Of a stretch of DNA of 64,000 nucleotides, positions 16,200 through 33,970 are shown piece after piece (within the stretch, counting starts at the first letter, position 1; each line of letters opens with the position of its first letter). The notes beneath the pieces were generated by a model, which was not told the origin of the DNA, did not search any database, and saw only the letters and a program-made list of their open reading frames with translations. Origin of the DNA: Prorocentrum cordatum (taxonomy: Eukaryota > Sar > Dinophyceae > Prorocentrales > Prorocentraceae). The stretch lies in the NCBI GenBank assembly GCA_963575745.1, contig CAUYUJ010015513.1:80001-144000 (forward strand), read 5' to 3'. The translations under genes and the position numbers were made by a program.

Positions 16200-17585
16200 G
16201 CGACGCCGAGCTCGACGCCCTCCCCGACGCCCGAGCCCACACCGAGCCCTTCATCGAGCCCAACGCCGAGTCCCACAGCGAGCCCCTCACCGAGCCCCAC
16301 GCCGAGCCCGACATCAAGCCCGACAGGGTCTCCAACGTCTTCACCGAGCCCCACAGCGAGCCCCTCGCCTGGGCCCACACCAAGCCCCACGCCAGGCCCT
16401 TCATCGAGCCCCACGCCGAGCCCCACACCGAGCCCCACACCAGGCCCCACACCGGGCCCCACGCCGGGACCCACAGCGAGCCCGACGTCAAGCCCGACAG
16501 GGTCTCCGACGTCCTCACCGACGCCGAGCCCGACGCCCTCCCCAACGCCCGAGCCCACACCGAGCCCCACACCGGGCCCTTCGCCGAGCCCAACGCCGAG
16601 TCCCACTGCGAGCCCTTCACCGAGCCCCACGACGAGCCCGACGCCAAGCCCGACGTCCAGCCCGAGCCCAACGCCGAATCCCACAACGAGCCCCTCGCCG
16701 AGCCCCACGCCGAGCCCCACACCGAGCCCTTCACCGAGCCCATCGCCAAGTCCCACAACGAGCCCCACGCCGAGCCCGACATCAAGCCCGACAGGGTCTC
16801 CAACATCTTCACCGAGCCCCACAGCGAGCCCGACACCCGCGCAGAGCCCTACACCAAGCCCCACGCTGGGCCCTTCATCGCGTACCTCCGAGAGCGACGC
16901 GCAGTTCCTGATCCAGGCCACCTTCGGGCCTACCCGCAGCAGCCTGGAGGAGCTGAGCCGAGCGACGCTGCAGTCATGGGTATGGACACAGCTTCAGGCC
17001 CCAGCCGAGTCGCACCGCGAGTATTACCGCAAGCGGGTCAGCAGCCGGCGGGCCGACGGCAATCTGATCGGCTCACCGCGGTCCTTGTGTGCGTACGGTT
17101 CCCGTTGGCATTCTTTTGCCTTCAGTGCCGCGGATGAGGGGAAGCCCATCAGCGTCACGGGCAACAAGATATACGTCGACGGCGTACACCACCGGAGCGA
17201 CATCGATCCCACTTATGCTGGAAACGGCCTTCCTGCCCCCGTCCATTGTACGGACAACGCGATCCCTTGGATGGTGAAAGGACATGGAAGTTGCAGCGAT
17301 TATGATATTCAGTCGGGGTTGTGCGGCCGCAGCGAGTCTTGGAGAGCAAATATGTGGTGCCAGCAGACCTGTTTTGATCAAGGCAACCGATACGGGACGG
17401 ACGACTGCTCTCCAGGTTGGGTCTCCTTGAAAGTTTCCGGCTACCTCTGCAACGTCGAGGATGAGCTGGGTGGCGTCCTGGGTATTGGAACTTCGTCCTG
17501 CGACAACAAGCGCTACTTCTTGAATCCTGCCATCTGGTTCTCCAGCTCCCCGGGCGACCCCGACACGTCGCTGACTTTTGACCAG
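16200..17585 (+). CDS. exon a: Pro-Thr linker and DUF1800 N-terminus
   Basis: Starts after a CACAG acceptor in phase 0 and ends at ACCAG|GTTAGG in phase 0. Residues 1 to about 225 are [12 protein letters not shown] repeats in which almost every third codon is CCG/CCC. From about residue 230 a DUF1800 start follows ([10 protein letters not shown]). A Cys-rich module then ends in [19 protein letters not shown]. An ATG at 16149 in the same frame gives no signal peptide, so I prefer the acceptor start. Confidence 0.8.

Positions 17586-33970: not shown

Follow-up and report, generated by a model that had tools for sequence, protein, structure and literature searches.

When a coding sequence is interrupted fifteen times, and many of the interruptions carry inverted ends and short direct repeats, the question arises whether mobile elements made the introns, entered introns that were already there, or are merely breaking up a gene in decay. 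This question is raised by a locus of Prorocentrum cordatum that lies in a stretch of 64,000 nucleotides, analysed here as a whole and referred to below as the window. Our results argue that the coding sequence was very probably cut into 16 exons mainly by introners of several families, which are predicted to be spliced out. We describe the anatomy of the introns, their target duplications, the empty sites in paralogs and the copies of the families elsewhere as they stand in the DNA; that the introns are spliced, and that the elements are mobilised by transposases encoded elsewhere, is what we infer. Recent intron gain from transposon-like elements has been attributed to dinoflagellates by Roy et al. 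2023, as cited in PMC11453091 and PMC10666404, and the excerpts of PMC11453091 give Polarella glacialis 15 introner families with at least 100 introns each. The existence of many introner families in one dinoflagellate genome is, in fact, already known, and what is new here is a single gene resolved site by site. Whereas the usual basis for claims of intron gain is genome statistics, at this locus the element, the target duplication, the empty site and a partial order of events can be given for individual sites.

Gene model and annotated fragments

Joined on the plus strand, the 16 exons give one open frame of 2,496 amino acids running from 16158 to about 34218, in which a profile search places DUF1800 (210 bits), DUF1501 (84 bits), CBM_35 (43 bits) and CBM_6 (37 bits). 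The first-pass annotation of this DNA, which had claimed that such joining brings DUF1800, DUF1501 and CBM6/35 landmarks into frame, was correct on this point. Taken separately, the reading frames of the gene show a DUF1800 split in two, DUF1501 and a low-scoring CBM; in the unspliced frame, which continues into intron 15, CBM_35 scores 25 bits, below the cut-off of 28. Pfam returned no match for six other long frames of the 64-kb window. Exon 1 (16158..17585), whose 5' end is provisional, encodes a linker rich in S, T and P and the start of the DUF1800 region, and is followed by exons 2 (17976..18085), 3 (18346..18565) and 4 (18961..19150). A Cyt-b5-like segment and the first half of DUF1800 are found in exon 5 (19863..20763), the second half of DUF1800 in exon 8 (26088..27138), with exons 6 (21122..21262) and 7 (22975..23799) between them. 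Beyond exon 9 (27328..27507), DUF1501 is found in exon 10 (27680..27979) and, past exons 11 (30548..30671), 12 (30997..31042) and 13 (31636..31924), ends in exon 14 (32113..32328). Exon 15 (32551..33324) encodes a linker and the first part of the CBM, and exon 16 (33523..34218) the end of the CBM and an S/T/P linker, its 3' end being uncertain as it enters a CA repeat. These exons were called from the open frame combined with homologs or, for exons 5, 8, 15 and 16, with the domain search.

Comparison of the junctions with 11 transcript-derived homologs gave gapless alignments in 54 of 65 comparisons and gaps in 11, and at the covered junctions among 1 to 14 the joined protein is collinear with P0121, P0122, P0123, P0001, P0124 and P0125, with small gaps at most. 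P0030 or P0001 served as the guide for placing junctions 10, 11 and 12 (both for the 3' border of intron 10, P0001 for the 3' border of intron 11 and the 5' border of intron 12), and paralog DNA fits them as well. Borders drawn by eye, mostly under an AG|G rule, for introns 4 and 9-13 were abandoned, being 3 to 36 bases off when compared to the target duplications and homologs.

Two annotated proteins were found for the locus, and each fits as a separate fragment of the gene. P0030, an annotated Prorocentrum cordatum protein that is 99.3% identical over the aligned part, shares junctions 8 and 9 with our model; at intron 7 its donor differs and its frame conflicts with the homologs, and past exon 11 it is out of frame. 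P0144, annotated for the 3' part of the gene, agrees with our junction 13 and has 7 extra residues (21 bp) at intron 14, which fits an inner GC-AG pair. We take this as a warning that annotation can break introner-rich genes. A locus known as two separate annotated fragments would also be expected if the gene were decaying, with transposons lying unspliced in its exons and a frame restored trivially by joining at the target duplications. The gene model is a prediction from DNA, and undoing any insertion precisely at its target duplication brings back the frame regardless of splicing, so that the open frame alone proves nothing in this regard. Decay is, however, difficult to reconcile with 2,496 codons free of stops and frameshifts at a dS of about 0.41 from the sister copy, a paralog on the same contig.

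Elements within the introns

Eleven introns (1-4, 7-9, 11 and 13-15) were classed as element-made, the other four being introns 5, 6, 10 and 12; all lie on the plus strand. Introns 1 (17586..17975) and 2 (18086..18345) are IE-1 elements with 8-bp target duplications, GGTTAGGC/GGTCAGGC and CCCGAGGC, respectively, the second also containing an internal tandem repeat. Intron 3 (18566..18960) is IE-5, with CGAGG at both borders as read by eye, and intron 4 (19151..19862) has the ends of IE-2 (IE-2-like on the left, at 19156, and IE-2 on the right, at 19861) and the repeat GGTGCC. Inside intron 4 there are an IE-3 piece (19545-19669), a GGA repeat and another, unnamed repeat (19382-19541), which has a free copy of 76% identity at 58850-59008. 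Introns 8 (27139..27327) and 9 (27508..27679) are made of IE-6 (GAGGA, ends TCGGGCGGAAC/TCGGGGGGGAC) and IE-3 (GGTGC, ends TCGGCCACGCGCAG/TTGGCGACGCGCAG), respectively. Two introns have elements of their own: intron 11 (30672..30996), with element-like ends TCGGCGGTGCAAA/TCGGTGGCTCAAA next to GGAGC/GGAGT, and intron 13 (31925..32112), with GAGGT and ends CTGGCGGGCGA/TTCGCGGGCGA. Intron 15 (33325..33522) is IE-2 flanked by AGGAC, in the orientation opposite to that of intron 4. Introns 7 (23800..26087) and 14 (32329..32550) are IE-4, and the direct repeat GATTC, found at both, may mean a preferred target. A reverse transcriptase element lies antisense, on the minus strand, within intron 7 at about 24340-25970, with an RVT_1 match (E 8e-13) in 24340-25407.

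Introns 5 (20764..21121), 6 (21263..22974), 10 (27980..30547) and 12 (31043..31635) are without convincing element ends and hold nested element sequence: an IE-7-like stretch in intron 5, IE-2 (21650-21808, flanked by GATGC) and IE-1 (about 21999-22194) in intron 6, IE-7 (28275-28456) and two IE-1 copies (about 28990-29150 and 29828-30002) in intron 10, and IE-7 in intron 12 (about 31061-31268, its ends read by eye). An 8-bp repeat of intron 12, TGCTCGAG, was considered as a target duplication and rejected, because paralogs place the junction elsewhere. Another unnamed repeat flanks exon 11 in inverted orientation (30386-30482 in intron 10 and 30724-30819 in intron 11), with a third piece at 29370-29411 in intron 10. 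The families originally assigned to introns 1-4, 7-9, 12, 14 and 15 were all recovered by blastn in the window, that of intron 12 as a nested copy, as the wording that this intron "carries" IE-7 had implied, and the inverted termini claimed for intron 13 reappeared in a scan for target duplications with inverted ends.

That scan was run blind, against a null of 1,500 random position pairs with 95%, 99% and 99.9% points of 9, 10.5 and 12. Introns 1, 2, 4, 8 and 9 scored at least 12, introns 3 and 13 scored 11 and intron 15 scored 10, so that eight of the 11 element-made introns reached 10 or more; for two of them the best row was in another register, the adopted one scoring 19 in intron 9 and the AGGAC register 9 in intron 15. 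Below the 99% point of the null were introns 5, 6, 7, 10 and 14 (6 to 7.5), intron 12 (9), intron 11 (8, about the 90% point and weak taken alone) and, narrowly, intron 15. Given the low scores of introns 7 and 14, their class rests on the common IE-4 sequence and the exact repeats. When donor and acceptor sides were permuted, none of 20,000 swaps equalled either of the actual totals, 78 for the lengths of the direct repeats and 99.0 for the inverted-end scores (swapped mean 63.6), although these results are not strict probabilities, since the registers of introns 7 and 14 were chosen by direct repeat and families recur. Folded alone, with the outer 120 bases on each side used for introns longer than 800 bases, the 11 element-made introns showed 9-37 end-to-end pairs and the other four 0-6. 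A de novo scan of the window for 5-bp duplications with inverted ends, whose simple-sequence filter removed IE-2, gave six candidates, three of which are known elements.

Empty sites in paralogs and in the sister copy

The DUF1800-DUF1501 family has more than 10 copies in the genome (C14001, C7136, C14602, C16414 and others), and few introns are seen in C7136 and C14602. Ten paralog places from the same genome were compared to the gene, and a site was called empty under a strict nucleotide criterion, namely a continuous match across it. Empty sites were found in this way for introns 1, 2, 11 and 13 (5 of 10 paralogs each: the sister and four others), 3 and 4 (4 each), 5 (1), 6 and 12 (5 each, all other than the sister), 7 and 14 (6 each: the sister and five others), 8 (4: the sister and three others), 9 (9: the sister and eight others) and 10 (8, all other than the sister), intron 15 being outside paralog coverage. 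For the remaining paralogs the site lay outside coverage or was too divergent or, in the sister at positions 5, 6, 10 and 12, an intron was present. Intron 5 is, at the protein level, absent from eight paralogs with at most two gap letters. Judged by these comparisons, which span 14 of the 15 introns and ten paralogs, the element-made introns appear to be introners, since paralogs lack them at the corresponding positions. The earlier proposal that introners of several families made introns here agrees with this, and with the presence of IE-6 (in C14001) and IE-7 (in C9735), along with further element types, in apparent introns at other sites of the paralogs. Sixteen such breaks in paralogs were entered by hand and their scores stand without a null: six score at least 16.5, ten score 6-9, and seven match a family of the window.

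The sister copy covers 12 of the positions, excluding introns 3, 4 and 15, and four of the 12 are common to both copies. Introns 1, 2, 7, 8, 9, 11, 13 and 14 are missing from the sister; its positions 6, 10 and 12 are each occupied by an intron, and at position 5 the 3' border of one can be seen. All eight testable element-made introns are therefore private to our gene, whereas the other four are common in place. Most of this division into two classes predates the reading of the sister; intron 12 was moved out of an IE-7-made class after that reading, and if left there the counts would be eight of nine versus three of three. Because the intron of the sister at position 5 ends in an IE-2 terminus, this position may represent two separate gains. 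The sister also has an intron of its own near residue 1050 (L010:5119-5304), which is flanked on either side by AGGTC, has the ends TTGGTATCTTTTAACC/TGAGTATCGTTTAACC and belongs to another family. In the nine other paralogs no exactly common intron position was found, two distant ones being doubtful.

Between the gene and its sister dS is 0.41 (1,383 codons), compared to 0.52-0.74 between the gene and six other paralogs, and in the tree gene and sister are joined with a support of 1.0, with C15966 next (0.97). With three different outgroups, pN/pS came to 0.41, 0.32 and 0.36 on the branch leading to the gene, not above the 0.44 that all three gave for the branch of the sister. With this evidence of constraint, added to the intact frame, we consider a decaying gene to be quite improbable. 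The same comparisons bear on the possibility that the introns are old, that transposons entered them later and that paralogs lost them. Such a history is true in part, as introns 6, 10 and 12 hold nested elements at places common with the sister; the eight introns absent from the sister, however, also have empty sites, across which the coding match runs unbroken, in between 3 and 8 more paralogs per intron, and the tree places the sister and the outgroups around our copy. Independent and exact losses on many branches would hence be needed, and as a general account of the locus this alternative is barely credible. For introns 1, 2, 7, 8, 9, 11, 13 and 14 it is contradicted by the sequences compared.

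Splice sites and proposed mechanism

Thirteen of the 15 introns, all but those made of IE-4, can be cut with a GT, GC or GA start and an AG end, with the caveat that the AG rule was used to choose among equivalent cuts; this also argues against a decaying gene, and all three donors are known for dinoflagellates according to the excerpts of PMC11453091. If introns 7 and 14 are cut exactly at GATTC, there is no AG at the 3' border, and the inverted stretch starts inside IE-4. These two introns would either splice without an AG, or use inner sites and add residues to the protein.

Coming back to introners as the probable makers of these introns, we propose that short DNA transposons lacking a transposase of their own inserted into exons and act as introns. 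Each insertion would duplicate exon bases, 8 for IE-1 and 5 for most of the others, and the duplicated target would provide the 5' splice site (GT, GC or GA). In introns 1, 4, 9 and 15, the 3' AG would be formed by the terminal A of the element, supplied by ends CGAA, CCGA or CCAA, together with the adjoining target copy, which starts with G or AG; in introns 2 and 3, both splice sites would fall inside the target copies. Removal of the element and one target copy would then restore the old codons. IE-2 faces one way in intron 4 and the other way in intron 15, which suggests that inverted ends let either orientation serve. At least eight of the element-made introns would have arisen in this copy after its split from the sister on the same contig, while the introns at positions 6, 10, 12 and perhaps 5 would be common with the sister in place.

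Several parts of this scheme have precedents in the literature, as far as the excerpts of the sources describe them. The dinoflagellate introners of PMC11453091 share with ours a recent origin of introns from transposon-like elements and a large number of families in one genome; our case concerns a species other than the dinoflagellates of Roy et al. 2023, and the comparison with paralogs resolves one gene down to individual target sites. In Symbiodinium microadriaticum (Gozashti et al. 2022, PMC9860276), introners likewise show target duplications, inverted ends and a 5' site derived from the duplicated target, but the duplication is 4 bp, versus 5 and 8 bp here, and the element carries the 3' splice site, which here it often does only in part. 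Introners of Aureococcus (PMC9860276) use inner splice sites and add codons, as IE-4 would at intron 14 if P0144 is followed, although 12 bp are added there with an 8-bp duplication, and 21 bp with a 5-bp repeat in our gene. The introner elements of Amoebophrya (Farhat et al. 2021, PMC7789003) resemble ours in their short direct repeats, in the folding of the intron by its inverted ends and in the multiplicity of families; their splice sites are mostly non-canonical, whereas GT/GC/GA-AG is possible in 13 of 15 introns here. For Prorocentrum cordatum itself, Dougan et al. 2023 (PMC10666404) described introns with inverted repeats at both ends, found by repeat pattern, and the excerpts of that work contain no family or empty-site analysis. 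Among the titles and excerpts searched, we found no single-gene, multi-family introner case with empty sites in a sister copy. A site-by-site record of this kind makes element ends, target choice and the formation of splice sites testable by RNA and insertion assays.

Element families and number of transposition systems

Free copies in the window had been reported for six families, and five of these could be located: IE-1 at 13463..13605, at 14664..14822 upstream of the gene (seen also in the genome search) and at 58395..58551; IE-3 at 59199..59350, with GTTGG (supported by copy comparison); IE-5 at 15858..15999, with CGAGG (seen also in the de novo scan); IE-6 at 57844..58017; and IE-7 at 59575..59759, all by blastn. 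The sixth, IE-2, has its sole further copy in the window inside intron 6. IE-1 (introns 1 and 2), IE-2 (4 and 15) and IE-4 (7 and 14) each make at least two introns of the gene, while IE-3, IE-5 and the elements of introns 11 and 13 make one each among the sequences examined. No copy of IE-4 or of the elements of introns 11 and 13 was found outside this gene in the 267 kb examined, and viral contigs searched with the IE-1 end and with the protein of the gene gave no match.

The search of the whole 4.13-Gb assembly, which had been suggested together with the families, was carried out for IE-1, IE-2 and IE-3 and returned many first-look places for each (2,012, 1,529 and 1,447, respectively); the best 40 candidates per family were scored and all matched, many of those of IE-2 over only half of the element. 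In 16 of 20 genome copies of IE-1, whose ends are TTAAGTCGGG and whose targets often have TA in the middle as judged by eye, the two halves of the 8-bp target duplication differ at no more than one base (mean identity over the copies is 0.86 for a length of 8 bp and 0.78 for 9). For IE-3, 11 of 17 copies (15 from the genome and 2 in the window) have a perfect 5-bp duplication (identity 0.85 at 5 bp, 0.74 at 6). A few of the genome copies sampled look like duplicates of one another. The IE-2 copies of the window are flanked by GATGC, AGGAC and GGTGCC, and five genome copies of IE-2 showed no clear target duplication.

Duplications of 8 bp for IE-1 and 5 bp for IE-3 in genome copies, with different ends, point to at least two transposition systems. 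The families had been called unrelated, and to this extent the description is upheld; the ends of IE-2 and IE-3 are, however, alike, and seven names need not stand for seven systems. One could go further and suppose that a single transposition system moves many bodies, with the families sharing their ends and one transposase, which would be compatible with the origin of the introns proposed above. In support of this, most ends of IE-2, IE-3, IE-6 and the element of intron 11 start with TCGG or TTGG, and the repeats of these elements are 5 bp long, besides the likeness of IE-2 to IE-3. We nonetheless regard it as unlikely, because the duplication of IE-1 is 8 bp long and its ends are different, IE-4 (GATTC) and IE-5 (CAGGGCTCGAC) differ too, and private introns of paralogs show still further ends. 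The proposal that all TCG-ended families form a single system was not adopted, as genome copies of IE-3 vary at that place and IE-1 differs, and is kept as a rival only.

The number of families in one gene had also been read as a sign that tolerance of splicing, rather than the elements, drives the gain; this may be so, and our data, which in this respect show no more than the occurrence of GT, GC and GA donors, are compatible with it. With somewhat more doubt than confidence, we suggest that introns arise equally easily from elements of about eight families, moved by at least two systems, and that each paralog may have acquired its exon structure independently over a span of 0.4-0.7 in synonymous divergence. 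If this is true, a permissive donor (GT, GC or GA) and a suitable element end would be all that a new intron needs.

Outside the gene, the window contains a direct segmental duplication, 567-8277 and 45696-52280, about 45 kb apart and 90-95% identical in five blocks. Its two copies differ by deletions, one of which involves an IE-3 remnant (7299-7337 versus 51277-51378).
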